Virus record (IMG/VR): IMGVR_UViG_3300017598_000124
Span: 1-44,938 of that record
Source of the DNA: a virus
DNA length: 44,938 bases
Strand: one strand, 5' to 3'
Part shown: positions 3,668 through 43,818 of the stretch, one piece after another
Numbering within the stretch: the stretch's first letter is position 1
How the letters are laid out: each line of letters starts with the position of its first letter
The notes under the pieces: generated by a model
Seen by the model: only the letters and a program-made list of their open reading frames with translations
The model's database searches: none
What the model was told of the DNA's origin: nothing
Translations under genes and position numbers: made by a program

Positions 3668-5215
3668 GTGACCCCAACACAAGTAAGAGAGAGAGCTGAG
3701 AAGGACCTAGAGTTCTTCATCAGTCTTGTCACATCAGGACAGAGAGCTCTAGGCTCATGTCATGTTGAGCTCCTCAACTGGTGGACTAGGGAAGATGCTA
3801 AGGATCATCAGCTTGTCTTGTTCCCTAGGGACCACGGTAAGTCAGCCCTAGTAGCCTACAGGGTAGCATGGGAACTAACCAAGGACCCAACACTAAGAGT
3901 CCTCTACATCTCAGCTACATCTAACCTAGCTCAGAAACAACTAGGGTTCATCAAGCAAGTCTTCGAGTCTGACGTGCATAGAACCTACTGGCCTGAACAT
4001 ATCCACCCTGAGGAAGGTAAGAGGAATAAGTGGACAGCTACTGAGATTGAACTTGATCATCCTCTCCGTAGAGTAGAGCAAGTCAGAGACCCATCCATTA
4101 TGACAGCTGGTCTGACTACTGGCATCACAGGTCTCCACTTCGACATTGCAGTCTTGGATGATGTTGTCGTCTATGAGAATGCTTACACTAAGGAAGGCAG
4201 GAATAGAGTTGAGACTCAGTACTCCCTCCTAGCCTCTATCGAAGGCACAGGGGCTCGTGAGTGGGTTGTAGGTACTAGGTACCACCCTAAGGATCTCTAC
4301 TCCCTCATGCTCAATATGATGGAGCCTGACTTCGATGAGGATGGCCAGATCACAGGTGAAGTAAACATCTACGAGGTCATGGAGAAAGCTGTAGAGGATA
4401 GAGGAGATGGCACAGGTCTGTTCCTCTGGCCCAAGCAACAACGTAGAGATGGTAAGTGGTTCGGCTTTGACATTAGAGAACTAGCACGTAAGAAGGCTAA
4501 GTATGTAGACAGGACACAGTTCAGAGCCCAGTACTACAACGACCCTACAGATCCTGATACTCGCCCTATTGACTACGATAAGTTCCAGTACTTCGACAAG
4601 GCATTCCTCAAACAAGACAGAGGACGTTGGTACTACAAGAGACAACCTCTTAACCTAGTAGCAGCTGTTGACTTCAACTACTCTAAACGTAAGGGTGCTG
4701 ACTATACAGCCATCGTAGTCATCGGTGTTGACTCAGACAATAACATCTTTGTCTTAGACATTAATAGATTCCAGACTGATCAGATCTCAACCTACTTCAG
4801 AGAGATCATGGCTATGAATAATAGATGGGGGTTCAAGAAGCTTAGAGCTGAGACTACAGCAGCCCAACAAGCTATCGTCACATCTCTTAAGCATGACTGG
4901 TTTGCTAAGCATGGTCTCACGATTAAGATTGAAGAGGTTAAGCCTACAAGACATGAAGGATCTAAAGAGGAACGTATGGAGGCTATCCTTACTCCTCGTT
5001 ATGACAACCTCCAAGTCTATCACTACAAGGGTGGAGATACTCAAGTCCTAGAGGATGAACTAGTCTCTAACAACCCACCCCACGATGATGTTAAGGATGC
5101 ACTAGCAACAGCCATAGAAGGCGCTGTACGCCCAGCTAGAACAATGAAACGATCTACGTCAGAGAACAGCAATGTGATCTTTGATTCTAGATTCGGAGGG
5201 AGAAGTTTCCGTTGA
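3668..5215 (+). CDS. terL: Terminase large subunit (DNA packaging ATPase and nuclease)
   Basis: A 515-residue packaging motor. The ATPase domain has a Walker A-like P-R-D-H-G-K-S (residues 53-59) and a Walker B I-A-V-L-D-D (160-165). The C-terminal half has an RNase H-like nuclease segment beginning A-A-V-D-F-N and a late conserved D-D motif in P-P-H-D-D-V-K-D-A. The start is GTG; no ATG lies nearby in frame. The stop overlaps the TTG start of the portal gene (TTGA), so the two are translationally coupled. Confidence 0.95.
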   Translation: MTPTQVRERAEKDLEFFISLVTSGQRALGSCHVELLNWWTREDAKDHQLVLFPRDHGKSALVAYRVAWELTKDPTLRVLYISATSNLAQKQLGFIKQVFESDVHRTYWPEHIHPEEGKRNKWTATEIELDHPLRRVEQVRDPSIMTAGLTTGITGLHFDIAVLDDVVVYENAYTKEGRNRVETQYSLLASIEGTGAREWVVGTRYHPKDLYSLMLNMMEPDFDEDGQITGEVNIYEVMEKAVEDRGDGTGLFLWPKQQRRDGKWFGFDIRELARKKAKYVDRTQFRAQYYNDPTDPDTRPIDYDKFQYFDKAFLKQDRGRWYYKRQPLNLVAAVDFNYSKRKGADYTAIVVIGVDSDNNIFVLDINRFQTDQISTYFREIMAMNNRWGFKKLRAETTAAQQAIVTSLKHDWFAKHGLTIKIEEVKPTRHEGSKEERMEAILTPRYDNLQVYHYKGGDTQVLEDELVSNNPPHDDVKDALATAIEGAVRPARTMKRSTSENSNVIFDSRFGGRSFR

Positions 5216-6924
5216 GAACCACTGTAGATGTACAACACCTGCTAGACTCAGATACTCTAGCTAAGGAGATCTCCAGTAAATGGACTCTCTGGAACAACAA
5301 CCGTGCTGAGTGGGTGGAGGAGAAGGAGGAGCTACGTAACTACGTCTTCGCTACTGACACACGTACTACCACCAACGCTAAGCTCCCTTGGGTGAATAGC
5401 ACTACCACACCTAAGCTCACACAGATCTATGACAACCTCAAGGCTAACTACACAGCTGCTCTGTTCCCTAACAGCAACTGGATGCGCTGGGAGGCTGACG
5501 ATAGTAACTCAGCTACAGCAGCTAAGAGAGATACTATCCAAGCCTATATGGAGAACAAGATCCGTCAGGGAGGTTTCGAGAAGACTGCTGACCAACTGGT
5601 TGATGACTTCATCCTCTACGGTAATTGCTTTGCGACTATTGAGTTCCAGAGTAACTACACTGAAGTAGATGAGGAACAGATCGTAGGTTACATCGGCCCT
5701 AAGATTGTCCGTGTCTCTCCTCACGATATTGTCTTCGACCCTACAGCTGCTGAGTTCAAGGACTCCCCTAAGATTACTCGTACTCTTATGTCCTTTGGTG
5801 AACTAGCTAAGAAGACTGAGTTTGCTGACACCTTCCGTAAGCTGGTCGACAACAGACAGAAGGTAGCTTCCGCTGACTATACATCTAAATCTAAAGGGTA
5901 CATTGCTGATGGCTTCGCCTCTATCGAACAGTACTACGACTCTGAGTATGTTGAACTCCTCACCTTCTACGGTGACATCTATGACCTAGAGTCTGAGGAG
6001 CTTATGGAGAAGAGACGTATCACTGTAGTAGATAGAGCCTACGTCCTCCACGATGAGCCTATCGCTTCATGGCTAGGTGCTGATCCTTTCTTCCATGCTA
6101 GCTGGCGTAGCCGCCCTGACAACCTCTACGGTATGGGCCCTCTTGATAACCTCGTAGGTATGCAGTACCGTATTGACCACCTTGAGAACCTTAAGGCTGA
6201 TGTCTTTGATCAGATCGCTCTGCCTATCCTCAAGGTCCAAGGAGATGTAGAAGACTTTGAGTATGCCCCCGGTGAGCGTATCATCATGGGTGAGGAAGGT
6301 AATGTAACTCCTCTGGTCCCTGACTCAACAGCTTTGAATGCTGACTTCCAGATTCAAACACTAGAGAATAAGATGGAAGAACTAGCTGGTGCTCCTCGTC
6401 AAGCTATGGGTATCCGTACTCCCGGTGAGAAGACAGCCTTTGAAGTACAGTCCTTGCAGAATGCAGCTGGACGTATCTTCCAACATAAGGCAGCTAAGTT
6501 CGAGAGAGAGTTCATTGAACCTGTCCTCAACTCTATGCTTGAAGCTTCTCGCCGTAACATGGACGTATCAGATGTTATCCGTGTACTAGACGATGAGACA
6601 GGAGCTCTCCTCTTCCAGAACATCACTAAAGAGGACATCACAGCTAAAGGTAAGATCGTCCCTGTAGGTGCTCGTCACTTCGCTGAGAGAGCTCAACGGG
6701 TACAGAACATCACTCAGCTTCTCCAACTTAAAGCTGATCCAACTATCGGAGCCCACCTCTCAGGTAAGAGTATTGCTAAACTCCTCGCTGAAGAACTGGG
6801 TGAAGAGGCTCTCTACGGAGAGAACATCGCAGTAGTTGAACAGGCTGAGACACAGAGTGCAGCCTTGGATGCTGAGGCTGACCTAGAAGAACAAATGCAA
6901 GTAGCAGCTGAAGAAGGACTGTAA
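5212..6924 (+). CDS. Portal protein (head-to-tail connector)
   Basis: A 570-residue protein that would form the dodecameric ring through which DNA enters and leaves the head. Length, position directly after TerL, and regions such as L-P-W-V-N-S, Y-G-M-G-P-L-D-N-L, G-A-P-R-Q-A-M-G-I-R and T-A-F-E-V match podoviral connectors of the T7 gp8 type. It starts with TTG overlapping the TerL stop codon. The acidic, Gln-rich C-terminus ends E-E-G-L. The bases at this end (GAAGGACTGTAAGATGCCT) resemble the 3' ends of the two 70-bp repeats just downstream. Confidence 0.92.
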   Translation: MRTTVDVQHLLDSDTLAKEISSKWTLWNNNRAEWVEEKEELRNYVFATDTRTTTNAKLPWVNSTTTPKLTQIYDNLKANYTAALFPNSNWMRWEADDSNSATAAKRDTIQAYMENKIRQGGFEKTADQLVDDFILYGNCFATIEFQSNYTEVDEEQIVGYIGPKIVRVSPHDIVFDPTAAEFKDSPKITRTLMSFGELAKKTEFADTFRKLVDNRQKVASADYTSKSKGYIADGFASIEQYYDSEYVELLTFYGDIYDLESEELMEKRRITVVDRAYVLHDEPIASWLGADPFFHASWRSRPDNLYGMGPLDNLVGMQYRIDHLENLKADVFDQIALPILKVQGDVEDFEYAPGERIIMGEEGNVTPLVPDSTALNADFQIQTLENKMEELAGAPRQAMGIRTPGEKTAFEVQSLQNAAGRIFQHKAAKFEREFIEPVLNSMLEASRRNMDVSDVIRVLDDETGALLFQNITKEDITAKGKIVPVGARHFAERAQRVQNITQLLQLKADPTIGAHLSGKSIAKLLAEELGEEALYGENIAVVEQAETQSAALDAEADLEEQMQVAAEEGL

Positions 6925-6925
6925 G

Positions 6926-7102
6926 ATGCCTAAAGGACAAACTAGTCGCCCAATAACACGTAAGTATAAAGGCAAGGGGAGTAATGCGATAACGGCCTCT
7001 AAAATGATGGAAGAGACTAGGAAGGACTTCGCTAAATCCCCTGGGTTTAGAAGGGCCGCCAATAGAGCTACCAACGAGATGCGACGGAAGAAGAGGAAGT
7101 AG
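6926..7102 (+). CDS. Small highly basic protein 1
   Basis: 58 residues beginning M-P-K-G-Q-T-S-R-P and ending R-R-K-K-R-K. It is the first of three consecutive small basic ORFs between portal and scaffold. ATG follows the portal stop by one base, with GAAGGA as ribosome site inside the portal end. The strong positive charge would suit DNA or RNA binding, for example a minor packaged protein, but I recognise no family. The stop codon lies inside the first copy of the 70-bp repeat. Confidence 0.7.
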   Translation: MPKGQTSRPITRKYKGKGSNAITASKMMEETRKDFAKSPGFRRAANRATNEMRRKKRK

Positions 7103-7159
7103 GCAGTGGACACCAAATGCCTTAGAACAACACCTCAAGAAGAAGGATTATAAGATGCC
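7090..7159 (+). repeat. 70-bp direct repeat, copy 1 (deletion derivative of the 7769 gene start)
   Basis: It matches 7389-7458 with one mismatch. The sequence is a chimera. The first 30 bases equal 7753-7782 (one mismatch), the end of a basic ORF plus the GTG start of the 7769 gene. The next 28 equal 7863-7890, inside that gene. The intervening 80 bases are missing, joined at a shared ATG. The remnant still has GTG followed by 15 codons (7106-7153) in a shifted frame, and its AAGAAGGA supplies the ribosome site for the next basic ORF. Confidence 0.9.
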
Positions 7160-7382
7160 TAGAAGTAAACAGAAAACACCGACCCGTAATAAAACAGCAG
7201 CCCGTAAGGGTGCTGCACATACTAAAGCTGCCCAAGAGATTAAGGAGTTTGGAAGGATTACACCTGAGGCGCGTAAGGCTATAGACGCTGCTCAAAAGAT
7301 TTCTGACAGCAAGGCTAAGCAGTTCAAACGCAAACGGCTCAAGGGCCGTACCCCACCCCAAGGCAACTTCGGCCAAATGTAG
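7155..7382 (+). CDS. Small highly basic protein 2
   Basis: 75 residues, rich in Lys, Arg, Ala and Thr, beginning M-P-R-S-K-Q-K-T. The start ATG and its AAGAAGGA ribosome site belong to repeat copy 1. The ORF ends G-Q-M just before repeat copy 2; bases after the stop still resemble the K-K-R-K coding end seen in its two neighbours. Its family is unknown. A role in condensing or accompanying packaged DNA is only a guess from charge and location. Confidence 0.65.
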   Translation: MPRSKQKTPTRNKTAARKGAAHTKAAQEIKEFGRITPEARKAIDAAQKISDSKAKQFKRKRLKGRTPPQGNFGQM

Positions 7383-7388
7383 GCTAAG

Positions 7389-7458
7389 GAAGAGGAAGTA
7401 GGCAGTGGACACCAAATGTCTTAGAACAACACCTCAAGAAGAAGGATTATAAGATGCC
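7389..7458 (+). repeat. 70-bp direct repeat, copy 2
   Basis: Second copy of the unit at 7090-7159. It carries the same internal deletion relative to the 7769 gene, so the deletion preceded the duplication. A 15-codon GTG remnant (7405-7452) is again followed, one base later, by the ATG of the next basic ORF. Confidence 0.9.
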
Positions 7459-7765
7459 AGCTGGAAGATCATCACGACCAGACAATCGTAAAGTAAAGAA
7501 GGCTATTACACGCCAGAAGCAACGGGCTGCTCTAACCGCGCGTGTGAAGAAACGTAAACCCGCTAAAGGCAACGAGGCCACCCAAAAGAAAAATACAACA
7601 AAGGTCTCTACTTCAGCTAAGGCTAGAGCAGATGCAAAGACTATCAAGGATTCCAAGCTGCGTAACGTTACGAGGCGAACAGCTAAGCAAGTAGGAGATA
7701 ACCTTCTGCTTGACGGAAGCTCCGCACGTACTCGTGAACGTATTAAACGGAAGAAGAGGAAGTAG
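7454..7765 (+). CDS. Small highly basic protein 3
   Basis: 103 residues, very rich in Lys and Arg, beginning M-P-A-G-R-S-S-R-P and ending I-K-R-K-K-R-K. It resembles basic protein 1 at both ends but has a longer middle (A-K-A-R-A-D-A-K-T-I and R-R-T-A-K-Q), so the two may be diverged duplicates. It is coupled to the upstream region by repeat copy 2 and is followed after three bases by the GTG of the next gene. A nucleic-acid-binding virion or packaging role is plausible but unproven. Confidence 0.7.
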   Translation: MPAGRSSRPDNRKVKKAITRQKQRAALTARVKKRKPAKGNEATQKKNTTKVSTSAKARADAKTIKDSKLRNVTRRTAKQVGDNLLLDGSSARTRERIKRKKRK

Positions 7766-7768
7766 GCA

Positions 7769-7999
7769 GTGGACACCAGATGGCTCAAGGGCTACACTGA
7801 TACTGAACGTAGAAAGAAGATCGTCAAGGGACATAAACCAGCACTAGACGATCTAAGGAATGTCTTAGAACAACACCTCAAGAAGAAGGAAGCAGTTCGA
7901 GACTATAGCTCTCCCGGTTGGGAACATGAGCAAATAGCTGTCAACGAGTACAACCAAGCACTCGATGACTTAATCAAACTAATCACAATTAAGGAATAG
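7769..7999 (+). CDS. Conserved-looking small protein between portal and scaffold
   Basis: 76 residues with a GTG start (M-D-T-R-W-L-K-G), mixed charge and probable helices; residues 27-45 and 60-76 look amphipathic. No family is recognised. Its first 14 bases and its segment 7863-7890 are the source of both 70-bp repeats upstream, so it is the intact parent of two internally deleted copies. GTG lies three bases after the basic ORF, whose AAGAAGAGGAAG end supplies the ribosome site. Confidence 0.65.
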   Translation: MDTRWLKGYTDTERRKKIVKGHKPALDDLRNVLEQHLKKKEAVRDYSSPGWEHEQIAVNEYNQALDDLIKLITIKE

Positions 8000-8006
8000 G
8001 ATCACC

Positions 8007-8771
8007 ATGTCCTCCGTATTCGATCAAGACTCCACCACAAGTCAAACCAGTGACGACACTTCTAGTCAATCAGAGACCAACGATGACTACATTAAGAAGG
8101 TCGTAGAACTCAAAGGAGATCAGTGGAATGATCCCCAAGCTCTGGCTAAAGGGTACCTGAACGCTCAGACCCACATCCAAGAACTTGAGGAGAAGGCCAA
8201 GGTAGCTGAAGCTGACAAGAATAAGGCTGACTACCAAGCTGAAATCCTAGAACTCCTGAAGGGCAAGGCACAGGCTACCGACCCTAACGGCACTGAACTT
8301 AAAGGTAGCGTCACCGAGCAGAAGGCTGATACCTCAGTTGCTCCTGTAGGTGAAGAGGATATTAAAAGCCTTGTTTCTAAAGCTCTGGCAGACCGAGAAG
8401 CTACTTCTCTTGCTGAAGCTAACCAAGTCAAAGCTGACTCTATGATGGTTGATGCCTTCGGAACTGAAGCTCACAGCACTATGGACAAGCGTTCTAAAGA
8501 ACTTGGTATGTCTGTTGACCGCCTCAAGGATATCGCTCAAGAGTCCCCTGACGCTTTCATGGCCCTTATGGGTCAGAGTCCAGCTAAGGAGACTAACCAA
8601 GGTATCCGAGGGACAGTCAATACAACTGGCAACTTCACTAAAGGCCACGACCGGAATAGTAAGTACTACTTCGATCTCATGCGTAAAGATCCTAAAACGT
8701 ATGGTCGCCGTGAAGTCCAACAACAAATGCTGGAAGACAAGAAACGTCTTGGTTCCCGCTTCTTCACATAA
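8007..8771 (+). CDS. Capsid assembly scaffolding protein
   Basis: 254 residues, acidic, Gln- and Lys-rich and largely helical, with a Ser/Thr/Asp-rich N-terminus and a predicted coiled segment around E-L-E-E-K-A-K-V-A-E-A-D-K. Its position directly before the major capsid gene and its composition are typical of podoviral scaffolds, which guide procapsid assembly and then leave. The C-terminus (K-K-R-L-G-S-R-F-F) is basic, as expected for the coat-binding end. Confidence 0.85.
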   Translation: MSSVFDQDSTTSQTSDDTSSQSETNDDYIKKVVELKGDQWNDPQALAKGYLNAQTHIQELEEKAKVAEADKNKADYQAEILELLKGKAQATDPNGTELKGSVTEQKADTSVAPVGEEDIKSLVSKALADREATSLAEANQVKADSMMVDAFGTEAHSTMDKRSKELGMSVDRLKDIAQESPDAFMALMGQSPAKETNQGIRGTVNTTGNFTKGHDRNSKYYFDLMRKDPKTYGRREVQQQMLEDKKRLGSRFFT

Positions 8772-32170: not shown

Positions 32171-33184
32171 TCAGTGAGTTTCTTTCCAATCTTTACCGAT
32201 TACATAGTCTCCTGCTAGGGGGCAGAAGAGATCAAACTTCTCCCCAGTTTCTTCTAGAGCCTTACACTTCAGCTCACCTAAACGTACCGCTTCCTCGTAT
32301 GTAGGGCACTCAGACTGCCACTCATCATGCACCATATCTACTTGTCTGAACCTGATGCCTTCATCCTTAGCTAACTGTCTCCATAATACATTGGCATGTT
32401 TCATAATCACAGCTTCACCATTCTGTAGGTACCCAGCTAACATGAGGTGTTGGCTTGAGCACATAACCTTACGACCATCTAGTCCGTAGAAGTATCCTCT
32501 TACAGCATCCCTAGGGATCATACTAGTCTTGATCTTCTTAAGTTCAGGGAGGCTGTCAAGGAAATTCTTCTCAGCTGTCTTAGCTTGGGCTACTGAGCAC
32601 TGGAGGATAGATGCAATCTTAGGGAGACCAGCACCTAGGAGCCACGCATAGATGAAAGTCTTCGAGTCATCCCTAGTCCTACAGATAGGACCTAAGGCTT
32701 GCTTGTTAAGGTTGTGGATGTCAGTCTCATCTTCCTTCTTACCTGACACAATAGCGTCACGATAGGCTTCTGACTGCATGTAGTGAGCTAGGATACGTAG
32801 TTGGATACCCTCAGCATCAGCACCTACAAGGTAATGATCAGTCTTGAAGAGAGCCCTAAGGTCAGCATCATACTTAGCCTTAACTTCTTCGACAGCCGAC
32901 CGTGGTTTACCTGAGAAGATAGAAGGAATGTTAGCTTGGTTAGGGGAGCTGTGAGACATACGTCCTGTCCATGCACCAATGTGCCAGAACTTACCATGTA
33001 TCCTACTGTCCTCTTGGACAGCCTGTAGCCACTCCTCAAGGCTGCTCCTGCGTCCTTCTAGGGTGAGCCACTTGGCAAGGTCCTTAGCAGCCTCAGGGGC
33101 GCTCTCAGGGAGTGTCTTAAGGTTCTCCTCTGAGCACTTCCATCCGTAGTGTTTGTAGTGATCAAGGTCTCTTGGTTTACCCAA
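32171..33184 (-). CDS. DNA polymerase family A, C-terminal (polymerase) fragment
   Basis: 337 residues holding all three polymerase motifs. Motif A is G-A-D-A-E-G-I-Q-L-R (Asp123), motif B R-D-D-S-K-T-F-I-Y-A-W-L-L-G-A-G (Lys175, Tyr179), motif C V-H-D-E (286-288). The exonuclease half is a separate gene at 36385-37254. Compared with T7 polymerase, the steric-gate Glu is Gln128 and Tyr530 is Leu183. The N-terminus begins in a linker region (K-P-R-D-L-D-H-Y). TTG start overlapping the upstream cassette gene; AGAATTCTT precedes it. Confidence 0.9.
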   Translation of the reverse strand: MGKPRDLDHYKHYGWKCSEENLKTLPESAPEAAKDLAKWLTLEGRRSSLEEWLQAVQEDSRIHGKFWHIGAWTGRMSHSSPNQANIPSIFSGKPRSAVEEVKAKYDADLRALFKTDHYLVGADAEGIQLRILAHYMQSEAYRDAIVSGKKEDETDIHNLNKQALGPICRTRDDSKTFIYAWLLGAGLPKIASILQCSVAQAKTAEKNFLDSLPELKKIKTSMIPRDAVRGYFYGLDGRKVMCSSQHLMLAGYLQNGEAVIMKHANVLWRQLAKDEGIRFRQVDMVHDEWQSECPTYEEAVRLGELKCKALEETGEKFDLFCPLAGDYVIGKDWKETH

Positions 33185-33380
33185 AGAATTCTCCCGGTAA
33201 TTTAAAGTCCATAGGATGATTCAACCACTTCTCAACTTTCTCTTCATACGCCCACTTAGCTTCCTTATCTTGAATGGAGAGCCACAGGGAGCCATACCCC
33301 GCCCCGTCTTGCATTGTTCCTTTCTCGTGGTTACAGAACACCCAGCCTTTATCTCTATATCGGTGTAGATGTTGTGTCAT
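33177..33380 (-). CDS. LPxEFLE cassette protein 13
   Basis: 67 residues from M-T-Q-H-L-H-R-Y; ATG overlaps the stop of cassette 12. Early strand R-Y-R-D-K-G-W-V-F-C-N, C-terminus F-K-L-P-G-E-F-F-G. Its end (GGAGAATTCTTTGGGTAA) contains the TTG start of the polymerase fragment, so it is directly coupled to it. The final Gly replaces the usual Glu, and the stop is TAA rather than TGA. Function unknown. Confidence 0.75.
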   Translation of the reverse strand: MTQHLHRYRDKGWVFCNHEKGTMQDGAGYGSLWLSIQDKEAKWAYEEKVEKWLNHPMDFKLPGEFFG

Positions 33381-34163: not shown

Positions 34164-35753
34164 TTAGTCTACCTCCTCTAGTGTAAATGTTTCAGGGTCA
34201 AAGATAACCTGACCAGCGTAACCAGTATACGATGTAGGTCTATTCTTAACTACTGTCAGTGTTGTAGTGTTCTTCACATCCTCGTCAGTAGACATCTTAT
34301 CCCTGCTTAGCTTGACAACAACATGTGCTCTCTTGCTGATCATACGTGAGTCTCTGACCTGACCATCATCATTCTCATGTGCAATGGTGATGATACCTAC
34401 GTTAAGCTCGGCAGACATCCTAGCTAGTTGGGAAGACATGTCCCTGAGTATAGGCTCAACCCCATCCTTAGCGTCAAGAGAGTAAGCCAAGTCTTGGATA
34501 GGCTCGAACATAATGTACTTACAGTCGCACACCTCAGCAAAGTACCTGACTCTATCCAAGATGAAGCTAGCATCAGCGTCAGTGTCAACACCAAACTGAT
34601 AGAAGTTACCATCAGCTGTCATCTCTTCGATAGCCTCTAGTACTTCTTCTTCAGGTGTCCCTCTGTAGGATGGGAGAAAGACTTGAGCTAAGTTACCCTT
34701 CTCATCAGGTTGGAACTCCGAGTCTTGGATAGTTACATTCTTCTTCAAGTGGTAAGATGCAATGCCTAGGAGGCCTCTCTTCTTAGTCTCTTCAAGGTGC
34801 ATAGTAGCGAAGGGGATAGTAGGATACTCAGACAAGAGGGTGTACTCCAGCTTCCTCATCAACTCAGTCTTACCGACACCCTCTGGCGCTTGGATAACTG
34901 TGAAGGCACCTTGAGCTATGCCACCTACTGAGTCATCAAAGTCCTTGATACCTGTCGGTACCATAGCGTAACCAGTGTCCCCTTTGATAATGTCCTTGAA
35001 CTCAGCGGGAGAGTTGAAGACACCTGAGGGTGTGAACTTAGTCTTAGTATTCCAGAAGGCAAACTTGAAGTCGTCCCCATCACCAGCCTGAAGGAACTCA
35101 TTAGCATCCTTGTGTTTAGTGAGAAGTACTCGGTAGGTCTTAGAAGGGAAAGCCTTATAGATCTTCTCCGCTGCCTTAGCCCCAGCTGGGTCATTCTCCA
35201 TACACAAGACAATATGATCGAAGGAGTCTAGGTAATCATGGCAGTTCTTAAGGAGATGTTTAGAGATACCAGCTGAAGGTAGACCAACAACAGGGATCTT
35301 ACCTTCAAGCATCTGATAGGCACTGGCTGTATCTTCTTCTCCCTCTACAATGACAATGAACTTGTGAGACCCAGCGTTGAACTTATCCATACCGAAGAGG
35401 TGGTCCCCTGTGAACCCTCTATTCTTGGTGAAGTCCTTGGGTAGGTATCGGTACTTGTCCTTGTGGGGATAAGGATAGACACGTCTAACCATCTTACCTT
35501 TGTCATCAAAGGAGGTGAGGATACCGTACTTCCTAGCAGCCCTAGGTTTAATACTCCGGTACTCAACACCTTCTCTGTCGTCTAGTTCAGGGTGCATGTA
35601 GCTACTCCCTCCTGTTTCTCTATTAGACCCACCACTCTTCTCGCATTGGTGACAGAAGAAACCTCCATCAGCCCACAAGGAGTAGCACTCATGTCCCTTG
35701 CAGTGAGGACAATCAAGGTGCGTCTTAATAGGGTCATCTGTTCTTGCATTCAT
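34164..35753 (-). CDS. Primase-helicase (T7 gp4-like)
   Basis: 529 residues joining primase and replicative helicase. Zinc motif C-P-H-C (residues 15-18) with C-x-x-C about 17 residues on; TOPRIM E-G-E-E-D (about 136) and M-E-N-D-P-A-G; RecA-like helicase Walker A A-P-E-G-V-G-K-T-E (about 288-296), followed by a Walker B-like I-M-F-E-P and the C-terminal I-I-T-I-A-H-E-N segment. It unwinds the fork and primes lagging-strand synthesis. It sits between the two halves of DNA polymerase with cassette genes on both sides. Confidence 0.93.
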   Translation of the reverse strand: MNARTDDPIKTHLDCPHCKGHECYSLWADGGFFCHQCEKSGGSNRETGGSSYMHPELDDREGVEYRSIKPRAARKYGILTSFDDKGKMVRRVYPYPHKDKYRYLPKDFTKNRGFTGDHLFGMDKFNAGSHKFIVIVEGEEDTASAYQMLEGKIPVVGLPSAGISKHLLKNCHDYLDSFDHIVLCMENDPAGAKAAEKIYKAFPSKTYRVLLTKHKDANEFLQAGDGDDFKFAFWNTKTKFTPSGVFNSPAEFKDIIKGDTGYAMVPTGIKDFDDSVGGIAQGAFTVIQAPEGVGKTELMRKLEYTLLSEYPTIPFATMHLEETKKRGLLGIASYHLKKNVTIQDSEFQPDEKGNLAQVFLPSYRGTPEEEVLEAIEEMTADGNFYQFGVDTDADASFILDRVRYFAEVCDCKYIMFEPIQDLAYSLDAKDGVEPILRDMSSQLARMSAELNVGIITIAHENDDGQVRDSRMISKRAHVVVKLSRDKMSTDEDVKNTTTLTVVKNRPTSYTGYAGQVIFDPETFTLEEVD

Positions 35754-36201: not shown

Positions 36202-36392
36202 TCTAAGAACTCCTTTGGTAGTAGGTAACTGCTAGGTTGACGATAGGACCAACCTGTACTTGTTAAATCACTATGTATACGAAGGTTGCCGACGACACGA
36301 GCGAAGCTATTCATAGTGATCACCCCTTGCCCCTCCCGGTATAGACCGCAACAGTCCTCAAAAGTCTTCATCAAATCAGAATTTCTAGGCAT
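36198..36392 (-). CDS. LPxEFLE cassette protein 7
   Basis: 64 residues from M-P-R-N-S-D-L. ATG lies inside the last codons of the polymerase exonuclease fragment, preceded by AAAGGAGG. Early strand C-G-L-Y-R-E-G-Q-G-V-I, then S-T-G-W-S-Y, C-terminus Y-L-L-P-K-E-F-L-E. This cassette marks the break in the DNA polymerase gene. Confidence 0.8.
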   Translation of the reverse strand: MPRNSDLMKTFEDCCGLYREGQGVITMNSFARVVGNLRIHSDLTSTGWSYRQPSSYLLPKEFLE

Positions 36393-37254
36393 ACGTACCT
36401 CCTTTACGTGCTTCTCTGATAGCCTTGATATGACCTTCTGTCTTCTCATGTGGGTTCCACCCAGCTTCCCATAGGGTATCAATCCTATCTTGAGGAGACC
36501 CCGGATTGAAATCTTTGTAGTCGTAGCACACTAACTCATCCCCTTCTATCTCAGTCTTAGGGTGCTCAGACAGAGCTGTTATGACATTGGAGAAGAGAGA
36601 ACCATCCTTCTTAGTACGATACTTAATGCGTTTAGACTCAACCAGCTTAGACCCGAAGGCTGCTCTAAAGGACACCTCAAGCTCCTCCTTCTCTTCCTTG
36701 ATCTGGTCAAGTAACTCCTTAGCTCTGTCAACATCAAACAAGAAACCATTACGCTGCATGTTAGAGCAGATAGCAGCCATCTCATGTTCAACCTTCAAGG
36801 CTTGTTCCCACTTAGGGTCCTTGATATACTTCCAGAAGTAGTTGACAATAGCTTCCTCAACGATAACGTCTTGGTCACAGTAGTCTCCCATCTCTTCAGT
36901 GTACTCATCCCAGCCTCCTGTGTAGTCTCCCTTGTATACTCTGAGGTACTCCCCTAACTCCTTGAGACTATGTGTCCTGAACTTAGAGTAGTTAACTGTA
37001 CGGCTCACTACGAAGGTGTCAATGATGCTCTCAGGCTTGATGTCTAGCCCTGTAAGCTTGTTGATGACAGGTAGGTCAGAGGACATACCATTATGGAACA
37101 CCCACTTCTCAGGTTCCTTGTCTAGTACAAAGTCCTTGAAGTAGCCCATGTCAGTGAACCTCTGCACCCCACCTTTGTTCAACTCCTTCAAGGAGATGCA
37201 GTGTATCTTACTCTCCCTGTCTCCATCCCATTCAGCATCAGCTACTAAGATCAT
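36385..37254 (-). CDS. DNA polymerase family A, N-terminal (3'-5' exonuclease) fragment
   Basis: 289 residues with the three exonuclease motifs: A-D-A-E-W-D (Exo I), F-H-N-G-M-S-S-D-L-P-V (Exo II) and Y-C-D-Q-D-V (Exo III). It runs through the region before the polymerase palm (L-W-E-A-G-W-N-P-H-E-K-T-E-G-H-I) and stops at A-R-K-G-G-T-Y-A, which holds the AAAGGAGG site for cassette 7. The rest of the enzyme is at 32171-33184. Together the parts give 626 residues, about full length for phage relatives, with all motifs present, so a two-subunit enzyme is likely rather than a dead gene. Confidence 0.92.
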   Translation of the reverse strand: MILVADAEWDGDRESKIHCISLKELNKGGVQRFTDMGYFKDFVLDKEPEKWVFHNGMSSDLPVINKLTGLDIKPESIIDTFVVSRTVNYSKFRTHSLKELGEYLRVYKGDYTGGWDEYTEEMGDYCDQDVIVEEAIVNYFWKYIKDPKWEQALKVEHEMAAICSNMQRNGFLFDVDRAKELLDQIKEEKEELEVSFRAAFGSKLVESKRIKYRTKKDGSLFSNVITALSEHPKTEIEGDELVCYDYKDFNPGSPQDRIDTLWEAGWNPHEKTEGHIKAIREARKGGTYA

Positions 37255-43443: not shown

Positions 43444-43749
43444 TTATCCTTCCTTCTTTAGTCTATAGCAAAGATACGGGTTGAACGTATCGCCTTCGGC
43501 AACCTCTCTCCACCCTCCAGTTTCAACGTCCCCTAAGTCTGAGTAAGAGTAAACCTCAACAGGAACCCTGTTGATAAAAGCTGACACTATCACCGATTGT
43601 TCATGTGGGGGCATGTCACAGAAGAAGTCTCTAATTGCATCTGTCATAGTCTTATCCTTTCTCTCTTCACAAAATATTCGTCCCGGTTTGTGCAGTTCTA
43701 AGAACGAACTAATTAGCAATTCTTCACGCATGTTTGACTTGACAGACAT
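43444..43749 (-). CDS. Small protein with internal duplicated leader
   Basis: 101 residues from M-S-V-K-S-N; an internal ATG at 43647 gives a 67-residue form (M-T-D-A-I-R). Each ATG is preceded by the same 45-bp leader holding GAGAGAAAGGATA, and the reading frame stays open through the second leader (R-I-F-C-E-E-R-K-D-K-T). The C-terminal half, V-E-V-Y-S-Y-S-D ... G-G-W-R-E-V ... Y-L-C-Y-R-L, resembles small phage proteins ending in Y-R-[IL]. Either or both starts may be used. Confidence 0.55.
   Translation of the reverse strand: MSVKSNMREELLISSFLELHKPGRIFCEERKDKTMTDAIRDFFCDMPPHEQSVIVSAFINRVPVEVYSYSDLGDVETGGWREVAEGDTFNPYLCYRLKKEG
43645..43689 (-). repeat. 45-bp leader repeat, copy 2
   Basis: It matches 43747-43791 at all but two positions. 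It contains the ribosome site (GAGAGAAAGGATA) and the start codon of the internal ORF. Confidence 0.85.
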
Positions 43750-43791
43750 AGTCCTATCCTTTCTCTCTTCACAAAATATTCGTGCCGGTTT
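43747..43791 (-). repeat. 45-bp leader repeat, copy 1
   Basis: First copy in transcription order. AACCGGCACGAATATTTTG then GAGAGAAAGGATA and ATG. A shorter form of the same ribosome site (AAGGATAAGACTATG) precedes the next gene at 43439. Confidence 0.85.
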
Positions 43792-43818
43792 TAGCAAGGG
43801 TATCCGGCTCCCTGTCCT

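Follow-up and report, generated by a model that had tools for sequence, protein, structure and literature searches.

Composite Repeats Between Small Basic Genes Point to Unequal Recombination in the Head-Assembly Operon of a Marine Phage

Results

A Repeat Built From the Ends of Two Neighboring Genes

Two 70-bp direct repeats (7090–7159 and 7389–7458) separate three small lysine/arginine-rich ORFs between the portal gene and gene 7769 of a marine phage, and we consider it probable that they are recombination scars built from the ends of these two neighboring genes, left when microhomology-driven unequal recombination between co-infecting phages brought three unrelated basic ORFs together. Recombination of this kind is already known, and the composite scar and the locus that carries it represent a new form of it. 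The features of the locus are listed in Table 1; the window referred to throughout is the whole 44,938-nt IMG/VR record. The phage is Zobellviridae, Cobavirinae-like in its terminase-portal-gene 7769-scaffold-capsid order, an arrangement that the annotations of CRP-4 and T5S1 (Zobellviridae; Cobavirinae) share. The best DNA matches of the window are SIO1/Lentibacter phages, and cobaltochelatase-like genes are present in it.

Table 1. Coordinates of the features at and around the repeats.
Feature	Coordinates	Strand	Remarks
Portal gene, upstream neighbor	5212..6924	+	PHROG 332 head-tail adaptor, E 8e-100; last codons contribute to part C
Donor-like copy of part C: portal end/ORF1 start, GAAGAAGGACTGTAAGATGCC	6910..6930	+	19/21 to both repeats
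ORF1, 58 aa basic protein, K+R 33%	6926..7102	+	
Repeat copy 1	7090..7159	+	Part A 7084–7115, part B 7116–7147, part C 7139–7159; B and C share 9 nt
Mini-ORF in copy 1, 15 codons, GTG...TAA	7106..7153	+	Stops 1 nt before ORF2 ATG
ORF2, 75 aa basic protein, K+R 28%	7155..7382	+	
Repeat copy 2	7389..7458	+	69/70 identical to copy 1
Mini-ORF in copy 2, 15 codons	7405..7452	+	Stops 1 nt before ORF3 ATG
ORF3, 103 aa basic protein, K+R 35%	7454..7765	+	
Intact part A source: ORF3 end, Shine-Dalgarno-like GAGGAAG, gene 7769 GTG start	7747..7778	+	
Gene 7769, 76 aa, conserved three-helix protein, PHROG 8956	7769..7999	+	53-sequence alignment; AlphaFold pLDDT 93.8
80-nt segment missing from both repeats	7779..7858	+	
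Intact part B source	7859..7890	+	32/32 to copy 2, 31/32 to copy 1
Microhomology with portal end, GAAGAAGGA, last 9 nt of part B source	7882..7890	+	
Putative scaffold gene, downstream neighbor	8007..8771	+	PHROG 7931, E 5e-36; homologous position in PQ867845 annotated scaffold

The repeats had been reported in a preliminary description of this DNA, and they proved to be real: the copies differ at a single base, and the full record contains no further one. Base-by-base alignment to the neighborhood resolved three parts. Part A, the first 26 nt of both repeats, matches 7753–7778 exactly, and in copy 1 the match runs leftwards to 32 nt; it spans the last codons of a basic ORF, a Shine-Dalgarno-like GAGGAAG and the start codon (GTG) of gene 7769. 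Part B is a 32-nt piece of the gene 7769 interior, with 80 nt of the gene absent where it adjoins A. An exact 32-nt match, set against a shuffled maximum score of 12, rules out chance. The earlier reading was right in that the repeats contain the beginning of gene 7769 shortened by 80 nt and were duplicated; the exact joint lies at 7778/7859. Its derivation from 7753–7782 joined to 7863–7890 identified two of the parts correctly, but leaves one mismatch (G7779 is A in the repeat) and explains only 58 of the 70 bases; the last 12, TTATAAGATGCC, are absent from gene 7769. Each copy retains, as also described, the GTG (7106 and 7405) followed by 15 codons that end in TAA (7151 and 7450), with a single base separating this stop from the ATG of the ORF downstream.

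What the preliminary description missed is the portal-derived part C, and it is this part that shows how the pieces were joined. Its sequence, GAAGAAGGATTATAAGATGCC, agrees with the portal 3′ end/ORF1 start (6910–6930) at 19/21 positions, and no other site in the record matched its 21-mer with ≤6 mismatches on the plus strand or ≤5 on the minus strand. Parts B and C overlap in the 9-nt sequence GAAGAAGGA, found at 6910–6918, at 7882–7890 and once in each repeat. In the portal gene these nine bases encode EEG, followed by a final leucine and the stop codon, whereas in gene 7769 they fall in a conserved KKKE motif. This is the geometry that an unequal crossover between a portal end and gene 7769 would leave, with a short sequence identical in both partners kept once at the joint. 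It also changes the account of what each repeat supplies to the ORF downstream: AAGAAGGA does come from gene 7769, as had been proposed, but the ATG that follows it comes from the portal-side boundary.

The two differences between part C and the phage's own portal end are synonymous (CTG vs. TTA, both leucine). The closest relative, L034, whose portal gene is 73% identical, carries GAAGAAGGATTGTAAGATGCC, which matches at 20/21 positions. Part C is thus one base closer to this portal end than to the phage's own, which suggests that its form of the boundary came from an ancestor or from another phage. One feature counts against our preferred explanation: the 9-nt match is purine-rich, and portal ends and gene 7769 homologues share a stretch of at least 9 nt in 6 of 120 intervals from the locus.

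The scar was carried by one contig only. The part A 21-mer GGAAGTAGGCAGTGGACACCA was absent from all other viral contigs, although its absence elsewhere is not strong evidence, and searches for a parental or intermediate genome found none. Among the relatives there was no second scar or intermediate either; in shuffle tests of intervals ≥160 nt (15–40 shuffles per interval), only the window stood clearly above its shuffles. A portal-end-like leader (19/23) before one cassette of the relative L007 was considered as a second scar and rejected, its score of 11 lying below the shuffled maximum of 14.

Other repeats occur elsewhere in the window. A 36-nt repeat at 33372, 36193, 42583 and 42780, the minus strand of which holds GGAGTTCTTNGAATGAC, is a repeated ribosome-binding and start region ahead of several short ORFs, and a 50-nt direct repeat near the right end (43645–43694 and 43747–43796) has copies 92% identical and 102 nt apart. 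The DNA polymerase is seemingly in two pieces, one exonuclease and one polymerase (36385–37254 and 32171–33184, both on the minus strand), with a primase/helicase (34164–35753) between them.

The Basic ORFs Are Too Dissimilar to Be Mutual Copies

The preliminary description held that duplication had created or multiplied the basic genes, and here our results disagree. DNA identities between the ORFs (ORF1-2 46%, ORF1-3 41%, ORF2-3 45%) were close to the codon-shuffled means (45, 39, and 45%, respectively), and only the ORF1/ORF3 pair exceeded its shuffled maximum, barely (0.413 vs. 0.411). Protein comparisons were also weak, with shuffle fractions of 0.34, 0.04, and 0.01. The gene 7769 fragments lying between the ORFs are, in contrast, 97–100% identical to the intact gene. 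Since these functionless fragments have stayed nearly unchanged while the ORFs sit at about the shuffled background, the ORFs were not duplicated along with them, and the segments between the joints are not the mutual copies that a plain tandem duplication would give. Some room is left for a shared ancestor of ORF1 and ORF3, which would be old, in view of their identical 3′ ends, a DNA identity just above the shuffled maximum and an N-terminal likeness (6/11 residues after MP identical, shuffle fraction 5e-5).

We found no significant relatives of ORF1, ORF2 or ORF3 in PHROGs, Pfam, phage records or viral contigs, nor of ORF3 in genome contigs, and our searches yielded no donor for any of them. 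Codon preference was slightly positive for ORF2 and ORF3, above that of their other frames, and negative for ORF1. A second open frame over the last 39 codons of the ORF2 region (7155–7401) would end in LRKRK like ORF1 and ORF3, and it is possible that this frame is the frameshifted original end of ORF2.

The Same Interval Varies Among Relatives

We collected 163 loci with a portal gene and a gene 7769 homologue (IMG/VR relatives and the window), which gave 120 distinct intervals. The preliminary description had called for a comparison of ORF numbers at this interval, and they do differ: by mechanical count, 57 intervals contain no small ORF, 57 contain one, two contain two and four contain three. 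The three-ORF intervals are those of the window (844 nt), L007 (850 nt), L122 (813 nt), and L029 (646 nt), the last with one ORF that is not basic. Across the 73 interval ORFs the median K+R content was 35%, and 92% of them reached at least 20%. CRP-4 and T5S1, both annotated as Cobavirinae, have no ORF in the interval, which implies that these genes are dispensable at that level.

Six near-identical contigs (L003–L008) show change at this site. Their portal 3′ ends are 97.8–100% identical and their gene 7769 homologues 99–100% identical, while their cassette sets differ (A-B, B′, B-C, and A-B-C), so that cassettes were gained or lost while the flanks hardly changed. Such presence or absence between near-identical genomes, a mark of exchangeable, moron-like cassettes, was seen in these relatives, not in the window itself. 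L009 and L049 share a basic ORF that is 93.2% identical at the DNA level, compared with 71% for the portal ends and 57% for the gene 7769 homologues, showing that phages with distant backbones have exchanged such an ORF here; ORF1–3 have no relatives with which to make the same comparison. Cassette C of L005 and L007, in turn, has relatives in unrelated gene neighborhoods of other phage contigs. Taken together, the cassette variation, the exchange and the neighborhoods of cassette C support movement of basic ORFs between phages in these relatives, and by extension we infer it for the window.

Two short motifs recur in the interval ORFs. One resembling APKTSxRPKARP occurs in basic ORFs of 12/73 intervals (those of L003–L008, L018–L020, L123, L151, L152, and L157; also L116–L119) and in relatives elsewhere in other phages; the window's ORFs are without it. 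A start of the form MPYxxGKVxxYxNxT is common to 30/73 intervals (e.g., L009, L049, L071, and L144), and in L144 the C-terminal part that follows it is a different one. By eye, we also noted HNH-endonuclease-like ORFs between the gene 7769 homologue and the scaffold gene in three contigs (at 913–1362 after the portal end in L038 and 403–891 in L039 and L041), suggesting that the gene 7769-scaffold boundary is also an insertion site.

Translation Signals Carried by the Scar

The same arrangement, a TAA-G-ATG junction with AGAAGGA upstream, leads into each basic ORF, whether from the portal gene (ORF1), from copy 1 (ORF2) or from copy 2 (ORF3). The scar keeps the gene 7769 initiation region unchanged, followed by its 15 codons to TAA. 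In the 53-sequence alignment, the GTG of this conserved gene lines up with the start of its homologues, and the scar GTG is therefore probably in use, bridging the ~50 nt that separate ORF2 from the end of ORF1; the 15-codon remnant is probably translated and passes ribosomes to the next basic ORF. Gene 7769 itself was confidently modeled by AlphaFold as three helices; its fold had no relative among solved structures, and its homologues were found in phages only.

The putative products of ORF1–3 are most likely lysine/arginine-rich accessory proteins made together with the head-assembly proteins. Their charge and their place in the head-assembly operon allow a guess at a head-associated, virion-internal or DNA-binding role.

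Discussion

What can be read directly from the DNA is a composite scar, present twice, with different ORFs in between, at a locus that varies among relatives. These findings are consistent with an assembly of the locus in three steps, the order of which we infer by parsimony. Two phages infecting one cell would have undergone an unequal join at GAAGAAGGA that connected the gene 7769 interior of one to the portal end of the other, giving portal, basic ORF a, a truncated gene 7769 start running into a portal end, basic ORF b and intact gene 7769. The truncated copy, at a point in the order that is likewise conjectural, lost the 80 nt now missing and so became the 70-nt scar. A second unequal crossover, between scar part A and the true gene 7769 start, could then have added another scar and a different ORF, since over its first 26–32 nt the scar does not differ from the start of the intact gene. 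The basic ORFs would thus be imported or allelic cassettes rather than mutual duplicates, and each insertion would have been immediately expressible through the gene 7769 initiation region in the scar and the portal-type TAA-G-ATG coupling.

Several other histories deserve consideration. Two rounds of tandem duplication within one genome, each copying a basic ORF with the gene 7769 start, and subsequent divergence of the ORF copies would account for three K/R-rich ORFs that all begin MP after TAAGATGCC, as well as for the N-terminal similarity and identical DNA ends of ORF1 and ORF3. The shared ends, however, belong to the scar itself, and the preservation of gene 7769 fragments beside ORFs at shuffled background strongly disfavors this history, leaving it unlikely in our estimation. 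We find it slightly harder still to credit that a single tandem duplication within the genome produced the scar and that unrelated ORFs later took the place of the duplicated ones by homologous exchange across conserved boundaries, which would give the same outcome in a different order: exchange between distant backbones was seen in L009 and L049, and boundary sequences do flank every ORF in the window, but more steps are needed than for one unequal join between two phages.

A functional origin of the repeats, as a conserved promoter, processing site or structured leader, appears very improbable. Both copies do precede ORFs and hold initiation signals, and the leader is slightly more folded than its shuffles (z −1.8); against this, the element is missing in relatives that keep gene 7769 and basic ORFs, promoter and terminator scans were at chance level with no strong structure, and neighboring coding DNA accounts for the sequence base by base. 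We regard an artefact of metagenomic contig assembly as the least credible of all, even with the repeat confined to one contig, given that the copies differ at one base and lie in different unique contexts, that mis-assembly more readily collapses repeats than creates them, and that similar three-ORF intervals occur in independent contigs. Unequal recombination between co-infecting phages remains the reading we prefer. It would be a speculative step further to see the portal-gene 7769 boundary as a dedicated expansion site, driven by chance homology between the conserved portal EEGL and gene 7769 KKKE motifs, where basic genes may be added, swapped, lost and expressed at once, their products entering the virion to act on the DNA or defenses of the next host; this we think improbable.

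Most mosaic joints in phages are without traces of their origin, whereas the joint in the window shows base by base which gene ends met, and translation signals are already in place for the genes that were added. At this locus the 120 distinct relatives record how often genes were gained, lost and exchanged, which makes it a tractable case of small accessory gene acquisition inside an otherwise conserved head-assembly operon.

The joint resembles those of phage T4, in which segmental amplifications arise at 6–10-bp microhomologies (PMC9391042). The T4 dmd-tifA amplification shares with the window a tandem structure and a short sequence kept once at the joint (6–10 bp vs. 9 nt); the repeated T4 genes, however, are copies of one segment, whereas in the window the repetition is confined to the boundary scar and the genes between are unrelated. 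A close precedent is gene 68 of Island3, a cluster I mycobacteriophage, which compared with Brujita is an extra small gene without homologues, its end repeating ~50 bp of the neighboring gene end, and which was attributed to recombination between the repeats, intra- or intermolecular (PMC3029335). There, too, an extra small gene is bounded by a repeated gene end, but Island3 has one extra gene and one gene end repeated, compared with two extra genes and a three-part scar from two neighboring genes in the window.

As variable sets of small proteins, the ORFs at this locus also recall, by analogy and not by membership, the T-even internal proteins IPI, IPII, and IPIII, of which IPI and IPIII counter host defenses and which share a capsid-targeting sequence (PMC3012670; PMC9391042). 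ORF1–3 show no shared N-terminal targeting sequence, their first 13 residues having only MP and proline 9 in common. Finally, the short conserved sequences at gene boundaries that are discussed with the mosaicism of tailed phages (PMC3029335) have their counterpart in the window, where conserved gene-boundary DNA likewise flanks exchangeable genes; unlike the usual boundary sequences, the boundary here has itself been duplicated into a chimeric scar.
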